Source of the DNA: Brucella pseudogrignonensis
GTDB taxonomy: Bacteria > Pseudomonadota > Alphaproteobacteria > Rhizobiales > Rhizobiaceae
Direction: 5' to 3'
Length of the DNA stretch: 64,000 nucleotides
NCBI RefSeq assembly: GCF_002252525.1
Contig: NZ_NNRM01000015.1
Location: 1 to 64,000, forward strand
Shown: positions 25,283-59,230 of the stretch, piece after piece
Numbering within the stretch: position 1 is the stretch's first letter
Layout of the letters: every line of letters starts with the position of its first letter
The notes under the pieces: generated by a model
Databases searched by the model: none
The model's input: the letters and a program-made list of their open reading frames with translations, nothing else
Told to the model about the DNA's origin: nothing
Made by a program: the position numbers and the translations under genes

Positions 25283-25298
25283 GTCAACAGCTGATGAT
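25283..25298. promoter_or_regulatory. Regulon palindrome site 1 (before universal stress gene)
   Basis: GTCAACAGCTGATGAT: matches GTCAWC-N4-GWTGAY. It is 53 bases before the start codon at 25230 and thus in or near the promoter of the universal stress gene. Confidence 0.6.
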
Positions 25299-25369
25299 TG
25301 AGAGGGCGAAAATCCTTTTTCTTGTGCCTCACGATTGTGTCAGGGAGTCCGGCGGGCCAGCGTTCAGCC

Positions 25370-25558
25370 TTACCGTGTGCGGGGACGGTGGGCCGCAGGG
25401 TCGTTCTGAGGCGTGATTTCATTCGGGGCTGTGTTTTCCCCTTCCGGCGCGGATCTGGTCTCGTCTGTCTTTTTCAGGGCGCGGCTTGGAGAGAGTTCGT
25501 GCTGTTGCATCCGGCGTTTCTTTCGGACCTCCACGGTGAACGGTGTTGTTTGCTTCAT
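25370..25558 (-). CDS. Small basic unknown protein
   Basis: A 62-residue polar protein (MKQTTPFTVEVRKKRR...), without hydrophobic segments, rich in charged residues and proline. A GGAGG site lies 12 bases before the ATG at 25558. The N-terminal phrase FTVEVRKKRR looks deliberate, whereas the C-terminal half is low complexity. It begins 22 bases after the HdeD gene in the same direction, so it may be its operon partner. No family is recognised. Confidence 0.45.
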   Translation of the reverse strand: MKQTTPFTVEVRKKRRMQQHELSPSRALKKTDETRSAPEGENTAPNEITPQNDPAAHRPRTR

Positions 25559-25580
25559 TGTCGTTTCCAACCTCCGGTTC

Positions 25581-26168
25581 TTATTCGTGATTGCGGTCGA
25601 TCCTGAGGGACCGTCGCAGCGCGAGCGCCAATGCGCTCAGGGCACAGCCGGTCACCATGACGTCGATCGCCAGCAGTGCGCCGATGATCCACAAACTGTT
25701 GACCGGCCAGCCCGCAAGGATGACAAGTGCAACAAGCACCGTCGCGGCGCCGGCCGCCGCGAGCCATAGCCAACCGGAAGCCGGGCGGATCGCCAGACCG
25801 GCGGCAGTCCTGACAATGCCTGCGACGAGCATGCTGAGAGCCATCAGTAGTGTCAGGAAAGTGGATGCCAGGACCGGGTTCCAGAATGTCATCACACCGG
25901 CCGCGACATAAAGCACACCGACAACGAGCAAACCGACAGTTTGGCCCCATCGCTTCATCTGAAATGCGAAGACGATATGCGCCGCACCCGCCAGTAGCAT
26001 CGTGACACCGACAAAGAGGACGGAAACGACCGTGGCCAGCAACAGGTTGGAGAGGGCGACAAGAGCTATCAACACGAGCACGATGCCGGCGACCAGCAGC
26101 CATCGCCATCGCGATCGCAACAGTTGCAGGTCGGCGGCGTCGAGGCTTGCGGTGTAATTGAATATCAT
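25581..26168 (-). CDS. HdeD-family (DUF308) membrane protein
   Basis: A 195-residue protein with six hydrophobic segments arranged as three repeated pairs, matching HdeD/DUF308. The N-terminal cytoplasmic helix LDAADLQLLRSRWRWLLVAG and the C-terminal WPVNSLWIIGALLAIDVMVTG are characteristic. HdeD is linked to acid resistance in Escherichia coli, but its molecular action is unknown. A close paralogue, frameshifted, is at 38243. An AGGAGA site precedes the ATG. Confidence 0.88.
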   Translation of the reverse strand: MIFNYTASLDAADLQLLRSRWRWLLVAGIVLVLIALVALSNLLLATVVSVLFVGVTMLLAGAAHIVFAFQMKRWGQTVGLLVVGVLYVAAGVMTFWNPVLASTFLTLLMALSMLVAGIVRTAAGLAIRPASGWLWLAAAGAATVLVALVILAGWPVNSLWIIGALLAIDVMVTGCALSALALALRRSLRIDRNHE

Positions 26169-26216
26169 AAGTATTCTCCTGCGATAGTTGCGTGAAGAAA
26201 GCTGCTTCGCGTCGTG

Positions 26217-27335
26217 TCAGTTTCCGCCGACGATCTTGCCGGCAAGGACAAACGGGCTGGAAAGGACCGCGCCAGCCGAATTGAATACAAACGCTCCGGC
26301 TTGCCTGAGATTTCGGGGGTCGCTCGTTCCATCCCGGCCCGAAAGCTTCGGATAGTAGGCAGCGAGACCGACGAAACGATTGTGGCGGAAGCTGTCTGAG
26401 GCCTCGATATCCGATATATCGATCACCTGCACATTCGCCCTGCGCGCCGCCTCCTCGATTTTCGGATCCGTCACGTCAATCCTGCCCAGGCGCTGACGTT
26501 CTGTGGATAGAAATTCCGAGACCTTCAGCGCCCTGTCATCCTTGGAAACAAGGATTGTCATCGGCGGGTTCAGTGTCCCGATCGTCGCAAGCTGTGCCTG
26601 GAACACGTCGACATCGATATCGGGCGCCGCAAGCACGACCTGCAGTCGACGGATCGCCGCGTCCTTGCCGGTAAGCCGCAGTTGGCGCACGGCTTCCGTC
26701 GTCAGCCATCCCCCCATGCTGTGGCCGACGAGCGTGATGGGACCCTGGGTCTGTTTGCGCGCCAGGGTGCTGAGCAGATCCGCCAACTGGTCCCGCGAGA
26801 ACGTCACCGCGTCCTTGTCGGCGACGTAGCCGCTCAAAGCGCCTTCGGACGGCCAGGCAAACAGGATCGGGGCGGCATCGACGCCGGCGTCAGCTGTCAT
26901 CTGGGCTATGCGATACACGGCCTCGGTGAAATTGGTGTTGTAGCCATGCACGAACACGCCGACACTCGGCGGTTTGCCGTTGTGTTTACGCGTGACTTCC
27001 GCCTCGAATGTCGCCGCGTCGAGAATGTGCTGGTCGACGGTGACAAAATCCGTCTTCGGGTTCGGCTTCGATTTCGGCCATTCGACATTGCCCGTCTTGT
27101 GACCTGGCGGGATGGAGACCCTGTAGCGGATATAGCTAACCTCGCGGCTACGACCCGACGTGTAGATACCGTTCTCATCACGCTTGCGCGTGGTCGCCAC
27201 ATAAACCGTCGTGAGCTTGGCCCCCGGAACGGCTTCGGCCCTCTGGGCGAGCAGTTCCGGGCCGGGGCGGCCGGCACAGGCTGCAAGCAGGCTTGTGAGA
27301 AGAAGTAGCGTAAGGCGTAGACTGAATTCACGCAT
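26217..27335 (-). CDS. Alpha/beta-hydrolase lipoprotein (DUF900)
   Basis: A 372-residue protein with a lipoprotein signal (lipobox LLAAC, cysteine at about residue 20), placing it on a membrane facing the periplasm. The DUF900 hydrolase has TVYVATTRKRD, VGVFVHGYNTNF (oxyanion region), the nucleophile elbow GHSMGGW and a likely acid in SKDDRAL. The substrate is unknown; family members act as esterase/lipase-like enzymes. The start at 27335 gives a proper signal peptide; the longer frame does not. Confidence 0.85.
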   Translation of the reverse strand: MREFSLRLTLLLLTSLLAACAGRPGPELLAQRAEAVPGAKLTTVYVATTRKRDENGIYTSGRSREVSYIRYRVSIPPGHKTGNVEWPKSKPNPKTDFVTVDQHILDAATFEAEVTRKHNGKPPSVGVFVHGYNTNFTEAVYRIAQMTADAGVDAAPILFAWPSEGALSGYVADKDAVTFSRDQLADLLSTLARKQTQGPITLVGHSMGGWLTTEAVRQLRLTGKDAAIRRLQVVLAAPDIDVDVFQAQLATIGTLNPPMTILVSKDDRALKVSEFLSTERQRLGRIDVTDPKIEEAARRANVQVIDISDIEASDSFRHNRFVGLAAYYPKLSGRDGTSDPRNLRQAGAFVFNSAGAVLSSPFVLAGKIVGGN

Positions 27336-27453
27336 TGACTGAACCGATTTCTTACTTATGCATTCGAAGCATCGCGCTCTCGATATGACAGAGTTCACCC
27401 TGTCGCCGCGCGAGCGGCGACCCCGACTTAGTTTGCATCAGCCCGCCTTCTGG

Positions 27454-28227
27454 CTAGGCCGTGATGTGGAAACCGTTGTCGGCGTATACCACCGACCCCG
27501 ACAGAGGCGTTGCCGCCTCGCTTGCCAGGAATGCGGCGATACGCCCAACCTCAGCGATGCTCACGAGGCGTCGCGATGGTGTTCTCTCACGCACCGTGTC
27601 GATGAGCTCATCGAAACGCTCGATTCCGGAAGCTGCCCTGGTGGCGATCGGCCCGGTGGACAGGCAATGGACGCGGATGTCCCGCGCTGCGAGATCGGCG
27701 GCCAGGTAGCGTACGCTTGCTTCCAGGGCCGCCTTCACCGGTCCCATCAGATTGTAGTTGTCGACGACGCGCTCAGCCCCGAAAAAGCTGACGGTTATCA
27801 AGGATCCGCCTTCCTTCATCAGCGGGGCGGCGAGCCGCGCCATTCGGATAAAGGAATGGCACGATATATCCATGGCCTGCGCGAAACCGTCAGCGGAGCA
27901 GTTGACGATGCTCGTCTGCAAGTCCTGTCGTGGCGCGAAGGCGATCGAATGAAGCAAGAAATCGAGGCGGCCCCATTCATTTGCTATGGTGTCGAAAACC
28001 GCCTCGAGCTGCCCATCAATGCGAACGTCACAGGGCATGAACAGCGACGCGCCCAGGGCATCGGCGACCGGGCGTACGAACGGGACAGCCTTATCGTTGA
28101 GATAGGTGACCGCCAGATCGGCGCCGGCAGCCTTGAACGCGGTTGCACAGCCGGCTGCGATGGAGGAATCGTTGGCGATGCCGACGACGAGGCCACGTCT
28201 TCCGAATATATCAACGATCGCAGCCAT
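27454..28227 (-). CDS. fabI: Enoyl-ACP reductase, FabI type
   Basis: A 257-residue NAD(P)H-dependent reductase for the last step of fatty-acid elongation. The cofactor-binding region has the FabI form GIANDSSIAAGCA, the dinucleotide acidic contact follows in CDVRIDG, and the catalytic Y-x6-K is YNLMGPVK in the phrase GAERVVDNYNLMGPVKAALE. It is last in the tetR-phaC-maoC/pta-ackA-fabI operon (3 bases after ackA). As an extra FabI in a non-fatty-acid operon, it may serve a stress form of lipid synthesis or a 3-hydroxyacyl pool for polymer synthesis. Confidence 0.92.
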   Translation of the reverse strand: MAAIVDIFGRRGLVVGIANDSSIAAGCATAFKAAGADLAVTYLNDKAVPFVRPVADALGASLFMPCDVRIDGQLEAVFDTIANEWGRLDFLLHSIAFAPRQDLQTSIVNCSADGFAQAMDISCHSFIRMARLAAPLMKEGGSLITVSFFGAERVVDNYNLMGPVKAALEASVRYLAADLAARDIRVHCLSTGPIATRAASGIERFDELIDTVRERTPSRRLVSIAEVGRIAAFLASEAATPLSGSVVYADNGFHITA

Positions 28228-28230
28228 CGC

Positions 28231-29406
28231 TCAGCCTCCCGAGATTCTCAAGGCGTCAGTGGCGATCACCTGCTCCTCATCGGTCGGGATGACAAGGACG
28301 GTAAGACGACTGGCAGGACTGCTGATGACGGGACCGCTCCCGGCGTTCGCTCCAGGATCGAGATCAATGCCGAGCCACATCAGCCGGGTGCAGATATCAG
28401 CTCTGATCGTCGGCTGATGCTCGCCGATCCCGGCGGTGAATACGAGAGTGTCGAGGCCGCCCAGCGTCGAGGCAAGCCGGGCAATCTCACCGGCGACCCT
28501 GAAGGTGAACAGCTCGATTGCTTCCTTGGCTTGCTGCTCATCACTCTCCAGAAGCACGCGGCTGTCGGCGCTGATGCCGGAAGCGCCCAGCAGACCCGAA
28601 CGGTGATAGAGGAGATCCTCGATTTCGCCAGGATCTCGCCCGGCCTTTAAGAGGTGTATGACCACGCCGGCGTCGAGCGCCCCGCAGCGCGTCGCCATCG
28701 GTACGCCGTCCAGCGTTGAGAAACCCATGCTGGTGTCGCGGCTGACGCAGTTGTGCATCGCGCAAAGACTGGCGCCGGAACCGAGATGGGCGACGATGAC
28801 CTTGCCCGCCGCCTGCTCCGGCCATTTGCTGATAAGCTGGTTGGCAATCGATCGATAAGAAAGGCCGTGGAAGCCATAGCGTTTGATACCCTCTTCGTAG
28901 AGCTGCCGCGGCAGGGCGAAGCGGCGGACGACGTCGGCATGCGAGCGGTGGAAAGCCGTGTCGAAGGAGGCGGTCTGCCTGATTTCTGGCCGAAGGCGCG
29001 CGATCGCCCGGACAAGGCGCAGCGCCTGGGGCTGATGAAGCGGCGCAAGCGGTATCAGCGCTTCCATCTGCGACATCGCCTGATCGTTGATGAGCACCGG
29101 TCCGTCAAACAGGTCACCGCCGTGCACAACGCGGTGGCCGATAGCGGCGATGCCGGATAAATCATAGTGCCAGGACAGCCGGTCGAACGCTTCGCGCAAG
29201 ACCTCGTCCAGTTCTTCCTCCGCTTTGGCTTCCAGCTCAACATCGAAGCGATCCGGGCCTTCGGAAAGCTCGAAGCGCAACGGGGCCTTGCGGAAATCGA
29301 TCATTCCCTTGCCGATTCGCGTGAGGCCACCGCCTTCAACGGCGAACAGGCCGATCTTGACCGTGGAGGAGCCGGCATTGAAGGTGACAAGCAGTTGCTG
29401 GCTCAT
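28231..29406 (-). CDS. ackA: Acetate kinase
   Basis: A 391-residue ASKHA kinase converting acetyl phosphate and ADP to acetate and ATP. Motifs seen: FNAGSSTVKIGLF (phosphate 1), GHRVVHGGD, DTAFH, YGFHGLSYRSIA, AHLGSGASLCA and FTAGIGEHQP. It overlaps the MaoC-Pta gene by 4 bases. Together with phosphoketolase and Pta it gives substrate-level ATP synthesis. Confidence 0.94.
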   Translation of the reverse strand: MSQQLLVTFNAGSSTVKIGLFAVEGGGLTRIGKGMIDFRKAPLRFELSEGPDRFDVELEAKAEEELDEVLREAFDRLSWHYDLSGIAAIGHRVVHGGDLFDGPVLINDQAMSQMEALIPLAPLHQPQALRLVRAIARLRPEIRQTASFDTAFHRSHADVVRRFALPRQLYEEGIKRYGFHGLSYRSIANQLISKWPEQAAGKVIVAHLGSGASLCAMHNCVSRDTSMGFSTLDGVPMATRCGALDAGVVIHLLKAGRDPGEIEDLLYHRSGLLGASGISADSRVLLESDEQQAKEAIELFTFRVAGEIARLASTLGGLDTLVFTAGIGEHQPTIRADICTRLMWLGIDLDPGANAGSGPVISSPASRLTVLVIPTDEEQVIATDALRISGG

Positions 29407-30815
29407 GAGATGGCCCCCGTTCCGGGTACCTGATTGCGGGCGACGAGCAGTCTTGCGAGCGTTGCCGAGGCGATGCGCGCCGAAAGCGGATCGGAGCGGC
29501 TGGTCAGCACGATCGGCACGCGCGCGCCGAGCACGATGCCGGCCGCGGTCGCCCCCGCGAAATAAATCAGTTGCTTGGCGAGCATGTTGCCAGCCTCAAG
29601 GTCCGGCACGAGCAGGATGTCGGCCTCGCCCGCGACGGGAGAGACAATGCCCTTCGTCTTCGCCGCATCGAGATCGATGGCATTGTCGAAGGCAAGCGGG
29701 CCATCGACACGTCCACCGATGATCTGGCCACGCGCCGCCATGACGGTCAGCGCCGCGGCGTCAAGGGTGGATGGCATCTTCGCGTTGACGGTCTCGACTG
29801 CTGCGAGCACCGCCACGCGCGGCTCTTTGACGCCAAGAGCTAGAAGAAGGTCGATAGCGTTCTGGCAGATGTCGCGTTTCTGGTCGAGCGTCGGCTGGAT
29901 GTTGATCGCAGCGTCGGTGACGATCAGCGGCTTGCCATAGGCCGGGACGTCGAAGGCGAAGACGTGGCTGACGCGCCGCTCCGTTCTGAGACCGGACCCG
30001 GTGGCGAGGACGGCGCCCAGAAGCTCGTCGGTATGCAGGCTGCCCTTGACCAGAACCGAAACCGTACCGCCGACCGCGAGTTCCACGGCGCGCGCGGCTG
30101 CCGCATGGCTGTGCGCAACGTCCTCGATCGCCATGTCGCCGAGATCGATCCCTGAGGCTTCGGCGGCTGCGCGAATCTTCGCCTCCGGCCCGACCAGCAG
30201 CGGGTCGAACAGGCCCTGTTGGCGGACCTCGACCGCAGCCAGGATTGCTCCGGCGGAGCACGGGTGTACAATGGCGGCCCGAACCGGGGGGAGACTACGA
30301 GCTTCGGCAACAAAAGCCTCATATCGGCTTGCTCGCCCTGTATCCTGCAATGCGACGGAGGAGGGTGTTGCGGTCCATTCGACCGACTTGTCGGGCGCGA
30401 TCACCATGGCCTTACCGGTCAGGACAAGTTCCGCTTTCTGATTTGCGCAGATCGTCTCCAGTGCAACAGTGCGATTGTCCGGGTTTTTCTGCACCACCCG
30501 CACGGTTGCCGTGATCGTGTCGCCGGCGGCGACCGGCTTCACGAAACGGAAATCCTGTCCCAGATAGATCGTCCCTGGCCCCGGAAGCCTTGTGCCGATC
30601 ACCAGAGAGACCAGCGCGCCTGTCCAAAGCCCGTTGGCAACGATATCGTTGAAGAACGTCGTTGCCTCCGCTGCCCCGTCACCAACTGCCGGCCTTTTGC
30701 CGAGCATCGCTGCCAGCAGATCGATGTCGGTATCACCTGCCACCCGTGTGAGGCTTGCGGTATCGCCGACCTGTAAATCGGCGAAGGTATGATTTGTCAG
30801 TAATTTTTCCGCCAT
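29403..30815 (-). CDS. MaoC-like hydratase / phosphate acetyl(butyryl)transferase fusion
   Basis: A 470-residue two-domain protein. Residues about 1-145 are a MaoC-type hotdog domain (SLTRVAGDTDIDLLAAMLG, then GTRLPGPGTIYLGQDFRF), and about 165-470 a PTA_PTB domain (HPCSAGAILAAVEV, KGSLHTDELLGAVL, VTDAAINIQPTL, IVLTSRSDP). The transferase half interconverts acetyl-CoA and acetyl phosphate and is paired with ackA. The hydratase half may act on short enoyl-CoAs linked to polyhydroxybutyrate. The start at 30815 excludes unrelated upstream residues; phaC ends 7 bases before. Confidence 0.92.
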   Translation of the reverse strand: MAEKLLTNHTFADLQVGDTASLTRVAGDTDIDLLAAMLGKRPAVGDGAAEATTFFNDIVANGLWTGALVSLVIGTRLPGPGTIYLGQDFRFVKPVAAGDTITATVRVVQKNPDNRTVALETICANQKAELVLTGKAMVIAPDKSVEWTATPSSVALQDTGRASRYEAFVAEARSLPPVRAAIVHPCSAGAILAAVEVRQQGLFDPLLVGPEAKIRAAAEASGIDLGDMAIEDVAHSHAAAARAVELAVGGTVSVLVKGSLHTDELLGAVLATGSGLRTERRVSHVFAFDVPAYGKPLIVTDAAINIQPTLDQKRDICQNAIDLLLALGVKEPRVAVLAAVETVNAKMPSTLDAAALTVMAARGQIIGGRVDGPLAFDNAIDLDAAKTKGIVSPVAGEADILLVPDLEAGNMLAKQLIYFAGATAAGIVLGARVPIVLTSRSDPLSARIASATLARLLVARNQVPGTGAIS

Positions 30816-30822
30816 CGCACTC

Positions 30823-32604
30823 TCACTTCTGGAACACGTAGGCACCGGGCGCTTCTGCAATGGCAGGAAAACCCCTCTCGGCGGCACCAAGCTGAGGCGG
30901 GGCTACACGAACCTTGCCTGAATGTGTAGCCAGCCACGGCAGCCACGCCTCCCACCAGGAACCGCCCCTCTCCTCTGCCTCTGCTGCCCATTCGTCGGGT
31001 CCGAGGCAGATGTCGGCTGCCAGCCTGGTCGCGATGCGATAGCGGCGACCGCGATGGCCCGGCTCGCTGACAATGCCTGCGTTGTGCCCGCCGCTGGCGA
31101 GAACGAAGGTAACATCGGTATCGGCTAGCTGGTGGATCTTGTAGACCGATCTCCATGGCGCGACATGATCGCGTTCCGTTCCCACGACGAACATCGGCAC
31201 GCGGATATTCTGCAGCGCCGCCGGACGGCCATCGATGATGAAGCGGCCGGATGCAAGCTCGTTGTCCAGGTAGAGACGCTGGAGGTATTCGGCATGCATG
31301 CGGTAAGGCATGCGCGTGGAATCGGCATTCCAGGCCATAAGGTCGTTCATCGGCGTGCGTTCGCCCATGAGATAGTCGTGGACCAGTCGCGACCAGACGA
31401 GGTCATTGCTCTTCAGGATTTGAAAGGCGCCGGCCATCTGGCTCGCCGACAGATAGCCCCGATCCCACATCATGCTTTCAAGAAAATGCATCTGGCTCGG
31501 ATCGATGAACAGCGCCAGTTCGCCGGGTTCGGAAAAATCCGTCTGGGCTGCGAAAAGGGTGAGCGTTGCCAGCCTCCCGTCGCCGGCGCGCCCCATCGCA
31601 GCCGCCGCCATCGCGAGAAGCGTACCGCCTAGACAATAGCCAGTGGCGTGGATCTTGCTGTCGGGAACGATGGCGGCGATCACGTCGAGCGCGGCCATGA
31701 CACCCAAACGGCGATAATCGTCCAGCGTCAGATCGCGATCGTCTGCCCCAGGGTTTCGCCAGGAAACGGCAAACACCGTGTGCCCCTGCCCGACCAGATA
31801 GCGTACCAGGGAGTTCTCCGGCGACAGGTCAAGGATGTAGTATTTCATGATCCAGGCCGGCACGATCAGCACCGGCTCCGCCACCACGGTGTTGGTCGTG
31901 GGGCTGTACTGGATCAGTTCGATCAGATGGTTTCGGAAGATGACCTTGCCGGGAGTGATCGCGACATCCCGGCCCGGTGCGAACCCTTCCGCACCGACGG
32001 GCGGGCGGCCGCCTGCAAGCCTGTTCACATCTTCGAACCAGTTCTGGAACCCCGAGAGGAAGTTTGCCCCTCCAGTGGTGATGGTTTTGTTGATCACCTC
32101 GGGATTAGTGAACGGGTTGTTGGAGGGCGAGAACATGTCGAGCACTTGCCGCGCGGCGAAGGAGACCACGTCCTCGTGGTGAGGAGCGACGCCCGGCACC
32201 TCCCGCGTCGCATTGTGCCACCACTGCTGGGCGAGCAGGAACGCCTGGGCATAGGCCGCAAAGGGGAGTCCCTTCCACGCCTCCCCGGTGAAGCGGTAGT
32301 CGCCCGGCAAGGACTCGATGCAGGATGGAGTGTCGTCACCGAGACTGGCGGCGCAGAGATAGCCCGACAGCCGGGCGCTTTTCCGCACCCCCTTGTCGAT
32401 AAGCTCCAGACGCTTCCCCGGCGCCGAGGCCAGATGAATCGACCAGTCGAACAATGCTAGCGCCAGCGCCGCGGGCGAAAGCCCGCCGGTGATCCGCGCG
32501 CTCCAGGCTTCGCGCATCCGATCAATGGCGCGGAAGGCCTCCGTGCCGAGAGTATCGTGAGGGACATCTGCCGCCCTCATTCCTGACCTGCTCAAATCAT
32601 TCAT
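30823..32604 (-). CDS. phaC: Class I poly(3-hydroxyalkanoate) synthase
   Basis: A 593-residue synthase that polymerises 3-hydroxyacyl-CoA at the granule surface. The nucleophile is Cys324 in GYCLGGT, with Asp in GTERDHVAPW and His in SGGHNAGIV completing the triad. The N-terminal domain and PAWIMKYYILDLSPENSLV, WRNP motifs are typical of class I. The start at 32604 overlaps the tetR stop by one base. It is unusual in being joined to pta-ackA-fabI; the reductase and thiolase lie at 60-62 kb. Confidence 0.95.
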   Translation of the reverse strand: MNDLSRSGMRAADVPHDTLGTEAFRAIDRMREAWSARITGGLSPAALALALFDWSIHLASAPGKRLELIDKGVRKSARLSGYLCAASLGDDTPSCIESLPGDYRFTGEAWKGLPFAAYAQAFLLAQQWWHNATREVPGVAPHHEDVVSFAARQVLDMFSPSNNPFTNPEVINKTITTGGANFLSGFQNWFEDVNRLAGGRPPVGAEGFAPGRDVAITPGKVIFRNHLIELIQYSPTTNTVVAEPVLIVPAWIMKYYILDLSPENSLVRYLVGQGHTVFAVSWRNPGADDRDLTLDDYRRLGVMAALDVIAAIVPDSKIHATGYCLGGTLLAMAAAAMGRAGDGRLATLTLFAAQTDFSEPGELALFIDPSQMHFLESMMWDRGYLSASQMAGAFQILKSNDLVWSRLVHDYLMGERTPMNDLMAWNADSTRMPYRMHAEYLQRLYLDNELASGRFIIDGRPAALQNIRVPMFVVGTERDHVAPWRSVYKIHQLADTDVTFVLASGGHNAGIVSEPGHRGRRYRIATRLAADICLGPDEWAAEAEERGGSWWEAWLPWLATHSGKVRVAPPQLGAAERGFPAIAEAPGAYVFQK

Positions 32605-33218
32605 TATGTCTCCCGACTGATCGGCACGGTGGCCCTCATGGTCTGGCATTCCTTGTCTTCGTTCATGATGAACTCGACAATCTGGGAGACCAGAGCCATC
32701 AGTTCACGATCACTTCCGCTCTTCTGGAGGGCTGGTGTGCCGATGACGTCACGAAGAATACTGACCCCGGCCAGAAACGCGGCGACCATTGACGCGCGCC
32801 GCTCGGACATGAGCGGGCATTTGGAAGCGAACGGCTTGACGAACCCGTCGTCGATGAGCTCACGAAAAACACGCGATGCCTCTGGACTGGAAAAAGATCG
32901 CGCGAGGATGTCAAAAGGCCGGATTTCGTTGGCGCCCTTCTCAGCGAGGATGTCTTGCGCGAGCGTCATATGCAACTCGCTCGCCTCGCCGACGAGCCAG
33001 GCCTCCGGTTGAAGTATCGCCTTGACTGCTGCCCGGAACAGCTCTTCCTTCGAACCGAAGGAACGATGAACATAGGCCATGTCGACACCGACATCGGCGG
33101 CAATGTCTCGCAACCCGGTTTCCTCATAGGAGTGGGTGGAGAAGCGAAGTATCGCGGCTTTCAGGATGCGCTCACGGGTGGTGTCTTCCGGGACGGGCCG
33201 GATCATTCGGTTGGGCAT
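32604..33218 (-). CDS. TetR-family regulator heading the phaC operon
   Basis: A 204-residue regulator. The HTH is in residues about 15-60 (TRERILKAAILRFSTHSYEETGLRDIAADVGVDMAYVHRSFGSKEELF), with a variable ligand-binding C-terminal part. It is the first gene of the tetR-phaC-maoC/pta-ackA-fabI operon, so it probably represses its own operon. The chosen start gives a normal TetR N-terminus. A GTCAAC-N4-GATGAC palindrome is 50 bases upstream, but that site also occurs before unrelated genes, so it is likely bound by another regulator. Confidence 0.9.
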   Translation of the reverse strand: MPNRMIRPVPEDTTRERILKAAILRFSTHSYEETGLRDIAADVGVDMAYVHRSFGSKEELFRAAVKAILQPEAWLVGEASELHMTLAQDILAEKGANEIRPFDILARSFSSPEASRVFRELIDDGFVKPFASKCPLMSERRASMVAAFLAGVSILRDVIGTPALQKSGSDRELMALVSQIVEFIMNEDKECQTMRATVPISRET

Positions 33219-33267: not shown

Positions 33268-33283
33268 GTCAACAGCCGATGAC
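33268..33283. promoter_or_regulatory. Regulon palindrome site 2 (before tetR-phaC-pta-ackA-fabI)
   Basis: GTCAACAGCCGATGAC: matches GTCAWC-N4-GWTGAY with both outer bases paired. It is 50 bases before the start codon at 33218, in the only long gap of this operon's upstream region. Confidence 0.6.
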
Positions 33284-34429: not shown

Positions 34430-34438
34430 GGCCCCACC

Positions 34439-39109: not shown

Positions 39110-39124
39110 TCATCGAGTGATGAT
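39109..39124. promoter_or_regulatory. Regulon palindrome site 3 (before the HlyD-RbbA exporter)
   Basis: GTCATCGAGTGATGAT: matches GTCAWC-N4-GWTGAY. It lies 418 bases before the hlyD start at 39542, and 77 bases before a small reading frame beginning at 39201, so the transcript may have a long leader. Confidence 0.5.
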
Positions 39125-43392: not shown

Positions 43393-43395
43393 TCC

Positions 43396-45634: not shown

Positions 45635-45671
45635 TCAGTTTGGCGCTGCGGTTTTTGAAAAGGGGTTAGAC

Positions 45672-46535: not shown

Positions 46536-46551
46536 GTCATCATCTGTTGAC
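46536..46551. promoter_or_regulatory. Regulon palindrome site 4 (before the arginine deiminase operon)
   Basis: GTCATCATCTGTTGAC: matches GTCAWC-N4-GWTGAY. It lies 133 bases before the permease start at 46684 and overlaps the FNR/FixK-like site by five bases. Confidence 0.6.
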
Positions 46552-46560
46552 TCAGATCAA
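46547..46560. promoter_or_regulatory. FNR/FixK-like anaerobox
   Basis: TTGACTCAGATCAA fits the FNR/FixK consensus TTGAY-N4-RTCAA. It is 124 bases before the arginine deiminase operon. Such operons are under Anr/FNR control in Pseudomonas, so low-oxygen induction is likely. Confidence 0.65.
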
Positions 46561-48117: not shown

Positions 48118-48128
48118 AGGAGATTGTC

Positions 48129-49355: not shown

Positions 49356-49367
49356 AGGAGGTCTATC

Positions 49368-50369
49368 ATGCCCGTTAACCTGAGAGGTCGCAGTGTCCTG
49401 AAGCTGCTCGATTTCACGCCGGACGAGATCCGTTTCCTGCTCAAACTGTCAGCTTCGCTCAAGCAGGCGAAATATGGCGGCTACGAGGAGCAACGCCTGA
49501 AAGGCAAGAACGTCGCGCTGATCTTCGAGAAGGATTCGACGCGCACACGCACGGGTTTCGAGGTGGCCGCCTATGACCAGGGCGCCCACGTTACCTATCT
49601 CGGGCCAACCGGCACCCAGATCGGCAAGAAGGAGTCGATGAAGGATACCGCCCGCGTTCTCGGGCGGATGTATGACGGCATCGAGTATCGCGGCTTCGGA
49701 CAGGAACAGGCGGAAACCTTGGCGGCCTATGCCGGCGTTCCGGTCTACAACGGACTGACCGACGAGTTCCATCCGACGCAGATTCTCGCCGATTTCCTGA
49801 CCATGCGGGAATACACGCGCAAGCACCTGTCCCAGGTAAGTTTCGCCTTCCTCGGTGACGCCGGAAACAACATGGGCAACTCGCTGCTGGCAGGCGCCGC
49901 GCAGATCGGCATGGATGTGCGCCTCGGCGCGCCGAAAGCCTGCTGGCCTGAGGACCATTTGGTGCGTCAGTGCCAGGAGATCGCAGCCAGGACCGGTGCG
50001 AAGATCGCCCTGACCGAAGATCCTTACGAGGCCGTCAACGGCTGCGATTTCGTCTACACCGATGTGTGGGTGTCAATGGGGGAGCCGGACTCGGTCTGGA
50101 AGGAACGCATTGAACTGCTCACACCCTATCGTGTCACCGCTGGCATCATGGCGGCGACGGGCAATCCGCATGCGAAATTCATGCACTGCCTGCCCGCGTT
50201 CCACAATCGCGAGACCGAGGTCGGCGAGAAGATCTTCCAGCAATACGGCATCGACAGCATGGAAGTGACCGAAGAGGTCTTCGAGTCCGAAGCGTCCATC
50301 GTCTTCGACCAGGCGGAAAACCGAATGCACACGATCAAGGCCCTGCTGGTCGCAACCTTGGGGTCGTGA
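49368..50369 (+). CDS. arcB: Ornithine carbamoyltransferase (catabolic)
   Basis: A 333-residue transferase splitting citrulline with phosphate to ornithine and carbamoyl phosphate in this pathway direction. Conserved: [14 protein letters not shown] (carbamoyl phosphate binding), [14 protein letters not shown], and [10 protein letters not shown] with the ornithine-binding cysteine. It begins 12 bases after arcA and ends one base before arcC. Confidence 0.95.
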
Positions 50370-50370
50370 C

Positions 50371-51297
50371 ATGAGGGTCGTGATAGCACTGGGCGGCAAT
50401 GCGCTCCTCAAGCGCGGCGAGCCAATGACGGCCGATGCGCAACGCACCAACGTTCGCAAGGCGGCCGCAGCGATGGCCGATCTGGCGCGCGACCATGACA
50501 TCGTGGTCGCCCATGGAAACGGACCACAGGTCGGTCTCCTCGCCTTACAGGCGGCGGCCTACAAAGACGTCGACCCCTATCCGCTCGATGTCCTGGGTGC
50601 AGAGAGCGTCGGCATGATCGGCTATCTGGTCGAGCAGGAGCTGACCAATGCGATGCCTGCGGGTTCAAGGATCGCGACACTGCTGACCCAGATAGAGGTG
50701 GACCGGGACGATCCCGCCTTCGCTCGCGCGGAAAAGCCGATAGGTCCGGTCTACACGCAGAACGAGGCGCTAAAGGCGAAAGAGGCACATGGCTGGCCTG
50801 TGGTAGAAGAAGCGCAGGGCCGCTGGCGCCGGGTCGTCCCGTCACCACTACCTCAGCATATTACCCAGATCGAGACGATCAGGCTCCTTGTCGAGGCTGG
50901 CGTCACTGTCATCTGCGCCGGCGGTGGAGGTATCCCGGTCATGCGCGAAGCCGATGGGACGCTTCGGGGACTGGAAGCGGTGATCGACAAGGACAGAGCA
51001 GCCGGGCTTCTCGCCAAGGCGCTCGGGGCCGACGCTTTCCTGATGCTGACCGACGTGGACGCTGTTTATGAGGGGTGGGGAACGGTCGATAGGCGGCCGA
51101 TCCGCAAAGTAACGCCTGCCGAGTTGACCAGCGACGTGTTCGCGGCCGGGTCCATGCGACCGAAAGTCGAAGCGGCGTGCGATTTTGCGAACGCGGGCGG
51201 GATTGCTGGAATAGGCCGGCTTGAAGATGCGCGCGGGATTCTGGAAGGGCGGCAAGGCACGTTGGTGACGCTTCAGGCGATCAATCAAGCGAGCTGA
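50371..51297 (+). CDS. arcC: Carbamate kinase
   Basis: A 308-residue kinase making ATP from carbamoyl phosphate and ADP. Motifs include VIALGGNALLKRGEPM at the start, AHGNGPQVGLLALQ, and CAGGGGIPV in the middle, with a nucleotide part LTDVDAVYEGWG. It is the ATP-yielding last step of the arginine deiminase pathway. Confidence 0.95.
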   Translation: MRVVIALGGNALLKRGEPMTADAQRTNVRKAAAAMADLARDHDIVVAHGNGPQVGLLALQAAAYKDVDPYPLDVLGAESVGMIGYLVEQELTNAMPAGSRIATLLTQIEVDRDDPAFARAEKPIGPVYTQNEALKAKEAHGWPVVEEAQGRWRRVVPSPLPQHITQIETIRLLVEAGVTVICAGGGGIPVMREADGTLRGLEAVIDKDRAAGLLAKALGADAFLMLTDVDAVYEGWGTVDRRPIRKVTPAELTSDVFAAGSMRPKVEAACDFANAGGIAGIGRLEDARGILEGRQGTLVTLQAINQAS

Positions 51298-52872: not shown

Positions 52873-55713
52873 TCAGGCGGCAACGAAGTCCCGCTTCTTG
52901 TTGTAACGTCGGGTGATCCACTTCCGGATTTCGCTGAACCAAAGGACGCTGCTGCTCATCGCAAGGCAGAGCAACCATTGATCAAGTGACAAAGGCACCG
53001 TTCCGAACGCGGCGTTGAGAAAGCTCACATTGACGACTGCTATCTGCAGGACAACAGACAAGCCGACCGCCGCCCAAAGCCACCTGTTCGCGAACAAATA
53101 GCTGAACGCGCTGCTGGATTCTGATCGGGCGCTGAAGCAATTGAACAGTTGGGAGAAAACCAACACGGTGAACCCCGCCGTGCGTGCTCGTTCCAGGCTC
53201 TGAGACCCTTCGATGAGCCCGCCGGGCAGATAGAAATCCATGGTCAGAAGCGCTGCCAGCGCCATCACCAGGCCGAGCGCGATAACGCTCCGCCACATTT
53301 GCGCGTCGATTGCGTGCTCGTTGGATTTGCGAGGCGGTCGCGCCATCACGTCGTCCGTTTCCGGATCGATACCCATGGCAAGAGCAGGGCCGGAGTCCGT
53401 GATCAGATTGATCCAAAGGATTTGAGTTGCCAGCAGCGGAAGAACCAGTTCGCCACCGCCGGCGTCAGCCAATCCTATCATGCCCGCTCCGATGACGCCG
53501 AGGAAGACGGTCAGCACCTCGCCCATATTGGAAGACAAGAGATAGCGCAGGAATTTGCGTATATTGTCGAAGATTCCGCGTCCTTCCTGCACGGCGTCGA
53601 CGATCGTGGCGAAATTGTCGTCGGCCAGCACCATATTGGCCGCTTCCTTGGTAACTTCCGTCCCGTTGATTCCCATTGCGATGCCGATATCCGCCGCCTT
53701 CAACGCCGGCGCGTCGTTGACGCCGTCGCCCGTCATCGCCACGACATTGCCATCGGCCTGCAGAGCATCGACGATGCGCAGCTTGTGCACGGGAGCGACG
53801 CGGGCATAGACCGAAATCGTGCGAACTGCCGCCGCGAACGCGGCATCGTCCATTGCGTCGAGATCGGCCCCGGTCAAAGCCTTCGCGCCGCGATCGACGA
53901 TGCCAAGCAAAGCGGCTATGCGCGATGCCGTACGCGGATGGTCGCCGGTGATCATCATCACGCGTATTCCGGCCCGGCGGGCTTTCGATATGGCGACGGC
54001 CGCTTCTTGCCGAGGCGGATCGATGATCCCGACCGTGCCGACAAAGATCAGATCATGTTCAAGGTCTTCGCCCTCCTCCGTGTCTTCGCCATCGGCCAGC
54101 GGCCGATAGGCGACCGACAGAGTGCGCAAGGCGTCGTCGGAGAGCCGTTCAACTTCGGCGGCGGCATGCGCGCGCTGTCCGGCGTCGAATGGAACGACAT
54201 CCATACCGATCCGTACATGCGTACAACGAGCCATCAGAACATCCGGTGCTCCCTTGGTAACGAGAATCCGCTCGCTGCCATGCTCATGGTCGATCTCGAT
54301 GGTCGACATCATCTTGCGGTCTGAACTGAACGGAATTTCGTTGATGCGTTCGAAGCGTCGCCTGCGGCGGTCGTCAATTTCGAGCTTACGCTCGGCAACC
54401 AGAAAAGCGGCCTCAGTGGGATCGCCCTGAATTTCCCAGACTCCGTTCTCCGCCTGGCGCAGGGCAGCATTGCCAGCCAGACTGCCGCCGCTCAGAACCA
54501 CGATCTGCTCGGCGCGCAGAGGCCCCTTGAAACCTCCACCGCCCTCAACTTCCAGATTGCCGACAGGCGCATACCCGACGCCAGTGACACGGCTGCTGCC
54601 GGACGCCGTTACGATGCGCTCGACCGTCATTTCGGATCGGGTCAGCGTTCCTGTCTTGTCCGAACAGATGACGGAAGCCGAGCCGAGCGTCTCGACCGAC
54701 GAGAGCGTCTTGACCACGGCTTTTCGTCCCGCCATGCGTTGGACGCCAAGCGCGAGCACCAGGGACAATATGGCGGGGAGGCCTTCCGGGACTGCGGCGA
54801 CGGCCAGCGAAACGCCCATCAGCAAAACGGAAATTACGTCGGAAGGGCCGTGGATGTCGGAAACCAAAAGCACTGTCGCGACCACGACGATGGCGATGGC
54901 GACAACGGCAATCCCGAGCGCGCGGCCGACCCGGGCGACCTCCTTCTGCAAGGGTGTCGTTTCCTCCTTGCTGGCGTCCAGCATCTGCGCAATGGTGCCG
55001 ATTTCGGTCCGCATTGCGGTTCCGGTGACAATTGCACGACCAGTTCCCTGAACCACCGCGGTCCCTTTGAACACCATGCAGAAACGCTCGGCCAGCGGGG
55101 CAGGATGATGCAGAATGGCTGCATCCTTGAGGATGGCCTCGCTTTCGCCGGTGAGCGAGGCTTCCTGCACGCGAAGGCTTGCTGCGCTAAGCAACCTTGC
55201 ATCGGCTCCGACGGCGTCACCCTCCTCAAGCAGCAGGATGTCGCCCGGCACAAGCTCGGCGCAGGGAATGCGGATTCGCTCGCCGTCCCTCAGAACGGAG
55301 GAGGTAACGGCGGTCATTCGCGCCAGCGCGGCCACGGCATCAGCAGCTCTTGTTTCCTGCACGAAGCCAAGAGCTGCATTCGCCAGGACCACCATGGCTA
55401 TCACGACTGCGTCGATAGGCCAGCCCGCATGCCCGTCAATAGCCCATGCCGCGAGGGCGATAATAATTGCTCCGAGCAGCAGATACACGAGTGGATCCCG
55501 GAACTGGGAAAGCAGGCGCTGCCAGATAGGAATCGGCGGCACCGCACGCAGTTCGTTGGGACCATTTTCTGCCAGCCGGCGTGCTGCTTCCGTTCTTGTC
55601 AGACCGCGCTGGGCGTCACTGGCGAGTTTGTCTACGACTTCCTCCGCGACGCGGAGCGAGTAGTCATCCGGTGTCTGCGGGGCGCGACCGCAGGGATTTC
55701 CGTCGCCCTTCAT
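52873..55713 (-). CDS. P-type ATPase, Ca2+ type (P2A)
   Basis: A 946-residue cation pump. It has the N-terminal cation-ATPase domain, TGES in the actuator, the phosphorylation motif DKTGTLT, and TGDGVNDAPALK in the P domain. Ca2+-type transport residues are present: PEGLPA in helix M4 and WINLITDS in helix M6. About ten membrane helices. It resembles CtpF-type ATPases found among hypoxia-induced genes of mycobacteria. Ca2+ export is most likely; Mn2+ is possible. The upstream region has an inverted repeat at 55856. Confidence 0.93.
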   Translation of the reverse strand: MKGDGNPCGRAPQTPDDYSLRVAEEVVDKLASDAQRGLTRTEAARRLAENGPNELRAVPPIPIWQRLLSQFRDPLVYLLLGAIIIALAAWAIDGHAGWPIDAVVIAMVVLANAALGFVQETRAADAVAALARMTAVTSSVLRDGERIRIPCAELVPGDILLLEEGDAVGADARLLSAASLRVQEASLTGESEAILKDAAILHHPAPLAERFCMVFKGTAVVQGTGRAIVTGTAMRTEIGTIAQMLDASKEETTPLQKEVARVGRALGIAVVAIAIVVVATVLLVSDIHGPSDVISVLLMGVSLAVAAVPEGLPAILSLVLALGVQRMAGRKAVVKTLSSVETLGSASVICSDKTGTLTRSEMTVERIVTASGSSRVTGVGYAPVGNLEVEGGGGFKGPLRAEQIVVLSGGSLAGNAALRQAENGVWEIQGDPTEAAFLVAERKLEIDDRRRRRFERINEIPFSSDRKMMSTIEIDHEHGSERILVTKGAPDVLMARCTHVRIGMDVVPFDAGQRAHAAAEVERLSDDALRTLSVAYRPLADGEDTEEGEDLEHDLIFVGTVGIIDPPRQEAAVAISKARRAGIRVMMITGDHPRTASRIAALLGIVDRGAKALTGADLDAMDDAAFAAAVRTISVYARVAPVHKLRIVDALQADGNVVAMTGDGVNDAPALKAADIGIAMGINGTEVTKEAANMVLADDNFATIVDAVQEGRGIFDNIRKFLRYLLSSNMGEVLTVFLGVIGAGMIGLADAGGGELVLPLLATQILWINLITDSGPALAMGIDPETDDVMARPPRKSNEHAIDAQMWRSVIALGLVMALAALLTMDFYLPGGLIEGSQSLERARTAGFTVLVFSQLFNCFSARSESSSAFSYLFANRWLWAAVGLSVVLQIAVVNVSFLNAAFGTVPLSLDQWLLCLAMSSSVLWFSEIRKWITRRYNKKRDFVAA

Positions 55714-55855
55714 TCAGCAGTCCCTTCTGTGATCTCTCCATGTCTCGTTTCCAGGCAGGCACCAACCAATTGATCAGCGGGCCTGCTGGGGAGACATCGA
55801 CCTCATGCCCACAAGGAGCGTTTTAGCCCATCCGAGTGGGGAAGAATGTCATCGA

Positions 55856-55873
55856 GACAGGTGACGACCTGTC
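55856..55873. promoter_or_regulatory. Inverted repeat GACAGGT-N4-ACCTGTC
   Basis: Perfect 7-base arms with a GACG spacer in the 272-base gap between phosphoketolase and the P-type ATPase. It is 143 bases before the ATPase start. GTCATC half-sites flank it on both sides (55848 and 55871), but they do not form the regulon palindrome. An operator for a dimeric regulator is likely. Confidence 0.5.
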
Positions 55874-55985
55874 ATCAAGCCGCACAAGTGGCTACACGAA
55901 TGATCCGCCCCGGCTTGGAAGCGATGCAAGGTAAGGCACCGAACAGTATCAGCATTCTCCGGTTCCTGAGATGATTTCGTCAGCG

Positions 55986-58331
55986 TTAAGGCCACGTCCA
56001 GTCCCGGATTTCGGGCATATCTTCTCCATGTTCATACACATACGCCTTGTGCAGGACGAGCTTCTCCTGGAGTGCTGCAACGATCTCCGCTCCCTTCTCC
56101 TTCAGGACGGGAAGACGCTCGATCGCCTCGATGGCCAGATGAAACCGGTCCAACTCGTTGAGGACGGCCATATCGAAGGGCGTCGTCGTGGTCCCCTCTT
56201 CGATAAAGCCGCGCACATGGAAATTTGGATGGTTGGCGCGTTTGTAGACAAGGCGATGGATAAGGTAAGAATAGCCGTGATACGCAAAGACCACCGGTCG
56301 GTCGCGTGTGAAGATGCTGTCGAACTTCTCGTTAGAAATACCATGCGGGTGGTGTTGCGGCGATTGCAGCGCCATCAGGTCCACGACGTTCACGACTCGG
56401 ATGCGCAGATGTGGCAGAGCCTGCCGCAAGAGGTCGACAGCGGCGAGCGTTTCCATGGTCGGCACGTCGCCGGCGCAGGCCATCACGATGTCTGGCTCCA
56501 ATCCGTCCTCGGTTCCAGCCCAGTCCCATATTCCAAGGCCCGCCTCGCAGTGCTGCTCGGCCTCCGTCATGGTCAACCATTGAGGCGCGGGCTGTTTGCC
56601 AGCGACAATGACATTCACCCGATCCCACGTCTTGAGGCAATGATCGCCGACCCACAACAGGGTATTCGCATCCGGGGGCAGATAGACGCGGACGATGTCG
56701 GCGCTTTTGTTTGCAACGAGATCGATGAAGCCGGGATCCTGATGGCTGAACCCGTTATGATCCTGCCGCCATACATGAGAAGTCAGAAGATAGTTTAGCG
56801 AGGAGATCGGCTTGCGCCATTCCAGTTCGCGCGAAACCTTCAGCCATTTGGCGTGCTGGCTGAACATGGAGTCCACAATGTGGATGAACGCCTCGTAGCA
56901 AGAGAAGAACCCATGGCGGCCAGTGAGCAGGTAGCCTTCAAGCCATCCCTGGCACAGATGCTCGGACAGTACTTCCATAACGCGCCCGTCGGGCGACAGA
57001 TGATCGTCAGTTTCGAGCGTTTCGGCCATCCAGACCCGGTCCGTCGCTTCGAACACGCTGCCGAGCCGGTTGGAAGCCGTCTCGTCCGGCCCGAACACAC
57101 GGAAGTTCCGCTCGTCATCGTTGAGCCGTAGGACGTCGCGTAGATAATCGCCGAGAACTTTCGTCGCCTGCGCTTCCGCCGCGCCGGGCCGGCCGACCTC
57201 CACGGCATAGCTGCGGAAGTCGGGTGTACGCAGTTCCTTGCGCAGAAGGCCGCCGTTGGCATGCGGATTGGCGCCCATGCGCCGCGGACCCTTGGGTGCC
57301 AAGGCCTTGAGCTCTGCCTTCAGTGCGCCCCTTTCATCGAACAAGTCCTCCGGGCCGTAGCTCCGCAGCCATTCCTCGAGGATAGCGCGGTGTCCTTCGT
57401 CCTCGCGGCAATTCGCGACCGGCACTTGATGAGAGCGCCAGTGGTTCTCCACCATCTTGCCGTCCACGACCTTAGGTCCTGTCCAGCCCTTGGGGCTGCG
57501 CAGAATGATCATAGGCCACTGCGGGCGCACCGATGACGAGGATGCCTTCCCTCGGATCGCAGCGAGCCGATCGAAGACAGTGTCGAACACTCCGGCCATC
57601 TGCTGGTGCATTTCAGCGGGCTCGCTACCCTCGACAAAGAACGGCTCATAGCCGTAGCCGATGAAAAGATGCTGCAACTCGTCGTCGGAAAGCCGCGCAA
57701 GAACGGTGGGGTTGGCGATCTTGTAGCCGTTGAGGTGCAGGATGGGCAGAACCATTCCGTCACGGGCCGGATTGACAAATTTGTTAGAATGCCATGCGGC
57801 CGCGAGCGGTCCGGTTTCTGCCTCGCCGTCGCCTACCACGCAAGCCACCACCAAATCGGGATTGTCTAGCGCGGCGCCGTAGGCATGAACCAGCGCATAA
57901 CCCAGCTCACCGCCTTCATGGATCGAGCCTGGCGTCTCCGGCGCAACGTGGCTCGGAACGCCGCCTGGAAATGAGAATTGCTTGAACAGCCGTCTCATTC
58001 CGGGCTCATCATCACCTATCTCGGGATAGGTTTCGGAATAGACGCCTTCCAGCCAGGTATTCGCAACCATGCCGGGGCCACCGTGCCCAGGCCCGCAGAC
58101 ATAGAGGATGTCCGCGTCGCGCTCGGTGATGATCCGATTCAAATGCGCATAGATGAAGTTGAGCCCCGGGGTCGTTCCCCAATGCCCAAGGAGGCGCGGT
58201 TTGACATGCTCCGGTTTCAGCGGTTCGCGGAGTAACGGATTGTCCATCAGATAAATCTGGCCAACGGATAAATAATTGGCCGCACGCCAGTAGCGATCGA
58301 TTAGCGATAATTTTCTGGTATCAAGCGACAT
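55986..58331 (-). CDS. xfp: Phosphoketolase
   Basis: A 781-residue TPP enzyme converting xylulose 5-phosphate (and possibly fructose 6-phosphate) with phosphate to acetyl phosphate. The TPP motif is [18 protein letters not shown]. Other conserved parts: [12 protein letters not shown] and [17 protein letters not shown] near the N-terminus. The start at 58331 gives the normal [20 protein letters not shown] beginning. Its product feeds acetate kinase for ATP or Pta for acetyl-CoA and PHB. A regulon palindrome sits 141 bases upstream. Confidence 0.94.
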
Positions 58332-58897
58332 AATGTTCCTTGTTGCATCCACGTTGCTAAGCGCGAGATCGTGTTGGGACTTAAGAACTGGAAGCGATCT
58401 GCGCAAATATCACTGGCGATACAACTCGCGAGTGAACGACTGACCGCACGGTATATTTCTAACACCCAATGGTCAACGACTGATGACGATAGCTGATGCT
58501 GCGGGTATGTCACCTGATATTTGCATCGCGCTCCGGCGTCGAAATCAACAGGATCGGTTGTTCGGAGGCGGTTAGTCGGTCCCTCCTTCGCACCAATGCC
58601 CCTTAGGTTTCATTCCCTGAGAGCAGCCTTCCCGGTCGCCAGAAAGAGGCTGGAAATCATCTCGGCGGCGGCGCTGATGAACAGAGGTCCCCGCTAGCCT
58701 GAGAAATAGCCGAAGACCCATTGGCGCGGAGCATCGATAACTCGTGATAAACTGATGCAGGGCCGCTGAAACTATGGTGATTTAACCCGACGGACGTCTT
58801 CAGTTTCCACGATTCTGACGATCTGAATGTCCTCCTTTGCTGATTTCGTTTTCCCCCTCAAGGCAAACAGCAAGGTCACCTATGCCCTCTCGCACCG
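58332..58897. other. 566-base gap upstream of phosphoketolase
   Basis: Contains the phosphoketolase promoter region with palindrome site 5; beyond about 58520 I see no gene. Codon-like patterns are broken and the following segment is the IS5-type transposase remnant, so this looks like decayed DNA. Confidence 0.45.
58472..58487. promoter_or_regulatory. Regulon palindrome site 5 (before phosphoketolase)
   Basis: GTCAACGACTGATGAC: matches GTCAWC-N4-GWTGAY with both outer bases paired; 141 bases before the start codon at 58331. Confidence 0.6.
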
Positions 58898-59041
58898 CGC
58901 TACCGCCAGCGAGATCTCGTCGAGCGCTTTTCCAATCGCATCAAAAGCTTTGGACGAATCGCAACCAAGCACGACAGGCACGCACAAAACCGCCTCGCCG
59001 CGATCAAGCTCGTAGGAGGTCGTAGCTGGTGTCAAACGTAA
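58898..59041 (+). pseudogene. IS5-family transposase C-terminal remnant
   Basis: The frame encodes RYRQRDLVERFSNRIKSFGR followed by IATKHDRHAQNRLAAIKLV, which matches the end of IS5-type transposases (usual form ERFFNKLKQFRRIATRYEK). The phenylalanine of ERFF is replaced by serine. It stops at 59041. No start, catalytic core or terminal repeats were found; a relic of past IS activity at the border between phosphoketolase and the PHB cluster. Confidence 0.75.
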
Positions 59042-59192
59042 CGGGTCGACGGATTACCCTGTTAACTCCGCCGAAATGTTCGTTGATCCGCCTCGATCCG
59101 CGATCCCGGATCGACGGCGCCCGATGCGCAAGCGGTCATTGTTTTGAACGCTATTGACAAGCCGAACCCGATTTACATATGGTTCGCGCACT

Positions 59193-59208
59193 GTCATCAG
59201 CTGATGAT
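59193..59208. promoter_or_regulatory. Regulon palindrome site 6
   Basis: GTCATCAGCTGATGAT: a complete palindrome TCATCAGCTGATGA with G before it. First of a tandem pair, 492 bases before phaP. Confidence 0.6.
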
Positions 59209-59214
59209 TGAGTC

Positions 59215-59230
59215 GTCATCTACCGATGAT
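59215..59230. promoter_or_regulatory. Regulon palindrome site 7
   Basis: GTCATCTACCGATGAT: matches GTCAWC-N4-GWTGAY. It starts 22 bases after site 6, about two helical turns, allowing two dimers to bind the same DNA face. Confidence 0.6.

Follow-up and report, generated by a model that had tools for sequence, protein, structure and literature searches.

Introduction

TetR-family proteins normally respond to a small molecule. Many of them repress transcription by way of palindromes that overlie promoters, and the targets of some are numerous, according to the part of the literature cited here (PMC6790063). In this report a 16-bp palindrome, RTCAWCNNNNGWTGAY (RTCAWC-N4-GWTGAY), is described from seven places of a gene island in a 64,000-nt stretch of Brucella pseudogrignonensis DNA (contig NZ_NNRM01000015.1, positions 1 to 64,000, referred to below as the window). 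The palindrome very probably constitutes the operator of a clade of TetR repressors whose cognate member is encoded in the window itself.

The autoregulated AcrR-type TetR repressors have a TetR_N helix-turn-helix (HTH), an all-helical fold and a palindrome in their own promoter region, as is found here. The TetR of the window differs from them in that it reaches the cut-off of no named NCBIfam TetR family (the best is PsrA, 37.6 bits of 300). No published description of this TetR or of its operator was found among the matches listed, and it is in this sense, within the literature searched, that the palindrome can be called new, as an initial annotation of the window had called it. The regulon is new, but of a known type.

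In Escherichia coli the TetR gene of CecR (YbiH) lies beside that of the HlyD-ABC exporter YbhGFSR, in the accounts drawn on here (PMC7190983, PMC6790063). A CecR-like context is present in distant homologues of the window TetR (L053-L055, L067, L068, L121 and L122; L numbers denote compared stretches). However the window TetR scores 29.3 bits of 365 with the CecR model, below the NCBIfam cut-off, and the exporter is here one of six units, the rest being mostly energy metabolism. The lxa locus of Burkholderia cenocepacia has clustered genes for universal stress proteins, for transport and for central metabolism that are linked to low oxygen; its suspected regulator belongs to the CRP family and is a relative of Anr and FixK, and the sections cited describe no such palindrome (PMC6127331, PMC9104464, PMC3759415). 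The lxa locus and the island are alike in gene content, lxa having been compared by its published description. The FNR/FixK consensus is TTGAT-N4-ATCAA. Boxes of this kind, an example of which is in the part of the literature cited (PMC9104464), are short palindromes that are able to share an arm with the operator described here.

Distribution of the palindrome in the window and in the host genome

The initial annotation had listed seven copies of the form GTCAWC-N4-GWTGAY. A scan of the window gives 10 strand matches to this form with zero mismatches, which correspond to seven places; every copy is exactly where it had been placed, and there is no further one. The sites, and an FNR-like box linked to the fourth, are as follows.

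25283..25298, site 1, GTCAACAGCTGATGAT: predicted operator before usp-DUF1269-nqr/apbE (minus-strand unit); the 16-mer is identical in a four-sequence alignment
33268..33283, site 2, GTCAACAGCCGATGAC: predicted operator by which tetR (minus strand) would regulate itself, 49 bp from the conserved ATG
39109..39124, site 3, GTCATCGAGTGATGAT: predicted operator of the hlyD-rbbA unit, between the -35 TTGACA and the -10 TGATAT
46536..46551, site 4, GTCATCATCTGTTGAC: predicted operator before dcuC-arcA-argF-arcC
46547..46560, FNR-like box, TTGACTCAGATCAA: has the right arm of site 4 in common; one mismatch to TTGAT-N4-ATCAA; weak alone
58472..58487, site 5, GTCAACGACTGATGAC: predicted operator before phosphoketolase (minus strand)
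59193..59208, site 6, GTCATCAGCTGATGAT: first of two sites in tandem, in the interval from xfp to the phasin-phaB genes
59215..59230, site 7, GTCATCTACCGATGAT: second of the tandem pair, 22 bp beyond site 6

In 100 dinucleotide shuffles of the window the form occurs 0.08 times on average, with a maximum of 2, versus the 7 seen; the figure of 0.25 first given for chance was thus conservative. Allowing two mismatches removes the excess (34 matches in the window versus 30.5 expected), and thus the signal is that of the strict motif.

The host genome (5,531,562 bases in 53 contigs) has eight places with the annotated form, seven of them inside the window, and ten with the symmetric form, seven of them in the island. 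The control, which is the pattern reversed, has one place in the genome. The three symmetric places outside of the island sit within open frames of 487, 237 and 322 codons. None of the seven island sites is covered by a frame of at least 100 codons (the longest covering frame has 70), although open frames of at least 100 codons are frequent in the host DNA and are no proof of genes. The only overlap of site 2 is with a reading of tetR that starts at a TTG and is over-long; the start that is kept in relatives is 49 bp away. The intergenic position claimed for the sites is borne out, and the distances of 53 and 50 given for sites 1 and 2 are right when counted in the annotation's own way. Among 297 genomes of the same family scanned with the annotated form, the background is a few places per genome, and no second island of comparable site density is present among the places listed. 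By eye, the third non-island place of the host genome (322-codon frame) is in a phage-like region.

Conservation before orthologous units

Three plasmids with rearranged islands, from Shinella sumterensis, Agrobacterium pusense and Pseudorhizobium flavum, formed the comparison set. A perfect symmetric palindrome is found before usp, tetR and hlyD in 3/3 plasmids each, and before yfcC-arc in 2/3. In A. pusense the hlyD palindrome stands between hlyD and a second tetR, and the yfcC-arc position has a different antiporter and no site. The alignment of usp upstream regions (window and three relatives) shows diverged sequence with the 16-mer identical in 4/4. The site before xfp is at the same place in L114 and L117, and the xfp/phasin interval, where the window has sites 6 and 7, retains one site in L117. 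Within 27 kb Kaistia defluvii has seven sites, two of which are 22 bp apart as are sites 6 and 7, with different neighbour genes; a Hyphomicrobiaceae metagenome-assembled genome retains six sites; and the hlyD site of Rhizobium rosettiformans has one mismatch. In annotated plasmid stretches 26/26 sites are outside of listed genes, by a hand count on PLSDB tables that are incomplete.

The recurrence of the palindrome before orthologous usp, tetR, hlyD-rbbA and dcuC/yfcC-arc units agrees with the initial annotation, which had joined the units it named in one regulon and had held that this would fail if the motif were as frequent inside genes or were not conserved. Off-island places are in long frames and island places are not, and orthologous units keep the palindrome; the regulon drawn in the annotation thus withstands both conditions. 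It is hardly conceivable that the sites are chance matches or copies of a mobile repeat and not regulatory sites: isolated genomic matches do resemble background within genes, but in the island the 16-mer alone is kept where the flanks have diverged, and seven copies stand against 0.08 expected. For the island sites this explanation is refuted by conservation.

The TetR protein and its association with the palindrome

No matching regulator had been recognized in the window by the initial annotation. The comparative tests given below, however, point to tetR as its gene. It is listed here with the second TetR-type gene of the window.

32604-33218, minus strand, tetR: TetR-family repressor, proposed binder of all seven sites; Pfam TetR_N and TetR_C_16
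37320-37976: AefR-like TetR

The tetR product scores 39.8 bits with PF00440 (TetR_N HTH; cut-off 24) and 38.9 bits with PF17920 (TetR_C_16; cut-off 26.2). Its predicted model displays the standard all-helical TetR fold and is nearest to 2guh, which names no ligand. One homologue is present in the host genome (E 1e-20). Cysteines were considered as a redox sensor in this TetR and rejected, being by eye not conserved.

A search for TetR relatives that was blind to the motif yielded ten loci at 38 to 95% identity and 29 plasmid records, and a perfect palindrome is upstream in 18/18 loci examined first. A class-wide search of 385 genomes gave seven more homologues, five with the palindrome and two, L060 and L065, with none; later additions came from Paracoccus, Paraburkholderia and weaker plasmid matches. 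Of the plasmid records with a TetR match 20/29 were used, the other nine being H28, H30 and H31 (match figures equal to those of the A. tumefaciens plasmid), H39 (a Sphingopyxis twin), H41-H43 (Paracoccus), and H48 and H49 (weak). Other genomes with a Pta match supplied one stretch each in 40 of 57 cases. L067 and L068 were selected for their presence in both the Pta and TetR lists, and L042, an identical copy, is excluded from all counts.

Among homologues with at least 76 bits, a cut set after the list had been seen, 27/29 carry a perfect palindrome at the start or in the 300 bp upstream of it, the window's own gene included (26/28 without it); L056 and five paralogues picked by motif, L119-L123, are excluded from this count. 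Below 76 bits the palindrome is found in 1/9. By arithmetic from observed rates, such an upstream stretch would have a perfect match by chance with a probability of the order of 1e-4. In 22 of the 27 cases the palindrome is 42-57 bp from the first aligned TetR position, and a site-to-start distance of 49 bp is found in 10/10 sequences with 70-100% TetR identity. Motif-bearing homologues range down to about 32% identity, and the motif accompanies the TetR gene over the alphaproteobacteria and as far as a Paraburkholderia.

When whole stretches are compared, the motif is present in 22/22 with a TetR homologue and in 2/45 without (L072 and L081; Fisher p 1e-15), with the caveats that related loci are not independent, that L006, counted among the 45, is part of the window's own contig from beyond the window, and that TetR-centred and Pta-centred stretches were selected differently. 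A cleaner subset consists of the nine plasmid islands that came from similarity in DNA or in Pta; there the motif is present in 5/5 with TetR (L039-L041, L067, L068) and in 1/4 without (L069-L072). On the TetR tree, which has related rows and many weak forks, the motif requires 3 changes versus 9.1 with shuffled labels. From these sequence comparisons the sites most likely represent operators of a real and conserved network that belongs to a TetR clade with no NCBIfam family name. Its six transcription units, with genes for stress, storage polymers and fermentation, would be switched together.

A different regulator in or beside the island could also bind the sites, namely the AefR-like TetR or a LysR by the conjugation genes (L006:3447-4400). 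No site precedes the AefR-like gene, and among the 22 other motif-bearing stretches an AefR-like protein is found in four (L043-L046) and a LysR match, which is weak (32%), in one; binding by either of these is very improbable.

Outlying sites give a further view of the association with the tetR product. Nine other genomes with this TetR have 71 places, 34 of them in TetR loci known before. In three genomes five outlying places or clusters, with 10 sites in all, were picked first from the pattern listing, and each has a TetR homologue at 34-51% and a site 46-56 bp before it. Neighbouring genes are hlyD-rbbA in L121 and L122, phaC-fabI-pta-ack in L122 and L123, phaC in L119, and neither in L120. 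The remaining 27 outlying places and two of the host genome have no TetR homologue nearby (0/29; the best match, at 2 kb, has 29.6 bits). Frames of at least 100 codons enclose 25 of the 29, as would be expected of background. Thus isolated matches appear to be mostly background, and functional ones would be those that accompany a TetR gene.

Near versions of the operator are found in Massilia (one mismatch) and in Sphingomonas and Novosphingobium (two each). There is a hint that operator and HTH may drift together. The distant TetR homologues L128, L129 and L131 have near operators (GTCAACAAGCGTTTAC in L129).

Several other arrangements of tetR were seen. Two operators are 39-40 bp apart before tetR at L063:2051-2106, L064:1385-1440 and L066:14913-14967, one of the two being mismatched in L063 and L064. 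A second tetR copy at L056:14503-14948, near virB genes on the same Shinella sumterensis plasmid as the first, is apparently broken (it was matched in two pieces) and has a perfect operator. The TetR rows of L041:28672-29286 (Pseudorhizobium plasmid) and L047:10001-10606 (another Rhizobiales genome) are identical, a possible sign of recent transfer.

Promoter geometry and proposed mechanism

In gene direction the downstream arm of the palindrome is GTTGAY in 19/23 tetR sites, and the sites compared before usp, dcuC/yfcC and xfp have it too. Because GTTGAY recurs as the downstream arm, the degenerate W in the motif is not random. TTGAC is a -35 consensus. The hlyD promoter has TTGACA-N17-TGATAT with the palindrome inside, and the alignment shows this to be kept in the window, L039 and L041. 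A palindrome between the -35 and the -10 is where a repressor would sit.

Several observations weigh against the assignment of the palindrome to TetR and to promoters. At tetR sites the -10 signal at spacer 17 is no higher than at other distances, and 4/23 have GATGAC as the downstream arm; thus the promoter reading draws on the -35-like arms and on the hlyD alignment. The hlyD site is mismatched in L046. The motif is absent from L060, although its HTH is the same as in motif-bearing sisters, and from the homologue of L125 (Streptomyces). L072 has three sites and zero TetR match within its 83.6-kb plasmid, the search being of the plasmid only, and L081 has one site with TetR absent from the stretch. 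Distances are unusual in 5/27 cases: 21 bp in L052, 86 bp in L062, 185 bp in L067 and L068, and an overlap with the estimated start in L066.

In the mechanism proposed, a TetR dimer would bind the 16-bp palindrome, which would cover the -35 (TTGAC downstream arm) at many promoters and lie between the -35 and the -10 at hlyD. Bound TetR would bar RNA polymerase from tetR and from at least five units, i.e., usp-nqr, hlyD-rbbA, dcuC-arcABC, phosphoketolase and phasin/PHB. A small effector would release TetR, and the units of the survival island would be switched on together; possible effectors are an acyl-CoA, a lipid or fermentation intermediate, and a toxicant that is exported. Several distant homologues are back to back with hlyD or rbbA, in the manner of CecR and YbhGFSR, and from this our best guess is that the window TetR originated as an efflux switch. 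With this scheme a mobile low-oxygen/stress island could be assigned its regulator and a readable operator code, and the regulon could be read from genomes with one 16-bp pattern and one protein family.

Oxygen and FNR boxes

The gene content of the island fits low-oxygen survival. Low oxygen as the signal, proposed in the initial annotation, is a tentative reading that draws on this content and on those palindromes which have an arm in common with an FNR-like box. The motif had from the outset been set apart from the FNR box, and this holds: the arms of FNR/FixK boxes run differently from those of the palindrome, no FNR box TTGATNNNNATCAA is present in the window, and TTGAT-N4-ATCAA boxes number zero in the window, L006 and L039-L041. 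The looser FNR-like box TTGA-N6-TCAA shares an arm with 10/52 distinct palindromes. A TCAA partner at FNR spacing is found for 10/60 eligible GTTGA arms, versus about 0.2 by simple arithmetic, in a count that is inflated by related rows and where divergent -35 elements could mimic the box. At L067:29807-29831 and L072:26035-26059 a palindrome and a perfect FNR box are fused via the TTGAT arm, before phaC; perfect overlapping boxes are confined to these two Rhodobacterales rows.

Shared arms, and the resemblance of the island to low-oxygen loci, would be expected if the palindrome belonged to an oxygen-responsive activator of the CRP/FNR type (FNR, FixK, Anr) whose specificity has changed and whose gene is at another place of the genome. 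With the TTGAC arm taken as a -35, the centre of the palindrome would moreover be near -40, the position of a class II activator. However a core activator is expected to have sites elsewhere, and the three of ten genomic places that are off-island are all in long frames; the motif, furthermore, tracks the TetR gene in alphaproteobacteria and a Paraburkholderia. The absence of the FNR consensus from the window and the location of site 3 between the -35 and the -10 led to the rejection of FNR/CRP as the main cause, and ownership of the palindrome by such an activator is improbable.

Repression by TetR is retained here, and shared TetR/FNR control is possible. In a dual scheme an FNR/FixK-type activator would compete with the TetR repressor for the half-site at some promoters, and units would open only with both signals. 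The 10/60 arms with a TCAA partner and the fused boxes of L067 and L072 favour such a scheme; against it are the inflation and mimicry just mentioned, the confinement of perfect overlaps to two rows, and the window itself, where only site 4 overlaps a box, with one mismatch. Perfect FNR boxes are also about equally widespread in stretches with TetR (4/22; 5 boxes in 654 kb) and without (9/44; 20 boxes in 931 kb). We regard dual control as doubtful, with a minor share of the likelihood.

Three plasmid islands, in Bosea (L070), Paraburkholderia (L071) and Shinella H4-D48, are without TetR and motif. Perfect FNR boxes number three in L070 and five in L071, with <0.01 expected in each; by eye all are outside of listed genes, one of them before groL. 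In the Shinella H4-D48 island the sole box is an FNR-like one, which lies between pta and phosphoketolase. The findings raise the question of an exchange of control on mobile DNA, the same island being under FNR in some hosts and under TetR in others. A general exchange of FNR boxes for TetR sites is not borne out by the counts of 4/22 and 9/44. We tentatively suggest that an efflux-operon repressor may have captured a mobile anaerobic-survival island, and that in the TetR lineage FNR control may have been replaced by TetR operators or fused with them via the half-site. The result would be an anaerobic and storage programme, carried by conjugative elements, to which a chemical signal gives access in place of oxygen or besides it. 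This is a speculative reading, and somewhat less likely given that FNR boxes are not clearly rarer with TetR.

Layout of the island

The transcription units, with predicted extents, are as follows.

17391..25230, minus strand: usp, DUF1269, NQR genes and apbE (site 1)
26217..32649, minus strand: phaC-(MaoC-Pta)-ackA-fabI-DUF900 hydrolase, downstream of tetR; putative single operon from its spacing; ackA is named by position and annotated relatives
39201..46322, plus strand: orf, hlyD, rbbA, ABC permease, zinc alcohol dehydrogenase and CBS protein (site 3)
46684..51297, plus strand: DcuC-family carrier, arginine deiminase, ornithine carbamoyltransferase and a carbamate kinase-like protein (site 4)
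52873..58406, minus strand: phosphoketolase and cation-transporting ATPase (site 5)
59619..60899, plus strand: phasin and short-chain reductase (sites 6 and 7), 389 bp from site 7; phasin start unsure

The first 14.9 kb of the window (1-14900), directly left of the island, are a Mu-like prophage with GemA, Mu Gp27, DUF3164, Mu transposase and a CI-like repressor. The island begins at ~15.4 kb with a Na/Ca exchanger, a nitroreductase, ApbE and NQR genes, usp and HdeD-like proteins, continues with tetR-phaC-MaoC/Pta-ackA-fabI, the HlyD-RbbA exporter, and DcuC with the arginine deiminase pathway, and has further the cation ATPase, phosphoketolase, phasin and short-chain reductase. Past the island are DUF3141 and LysR and, by eye, a trb/tra-like conjugation module and another PhaC. 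A piece of 10 kb has 100% identity to Shinella sp. PSBB067 NZ_CP069303, and related islands are found on plasmids typed as conjugative in Shinella sumterensis, Agrobacterium pusense and Pseudorhizobium flavum.

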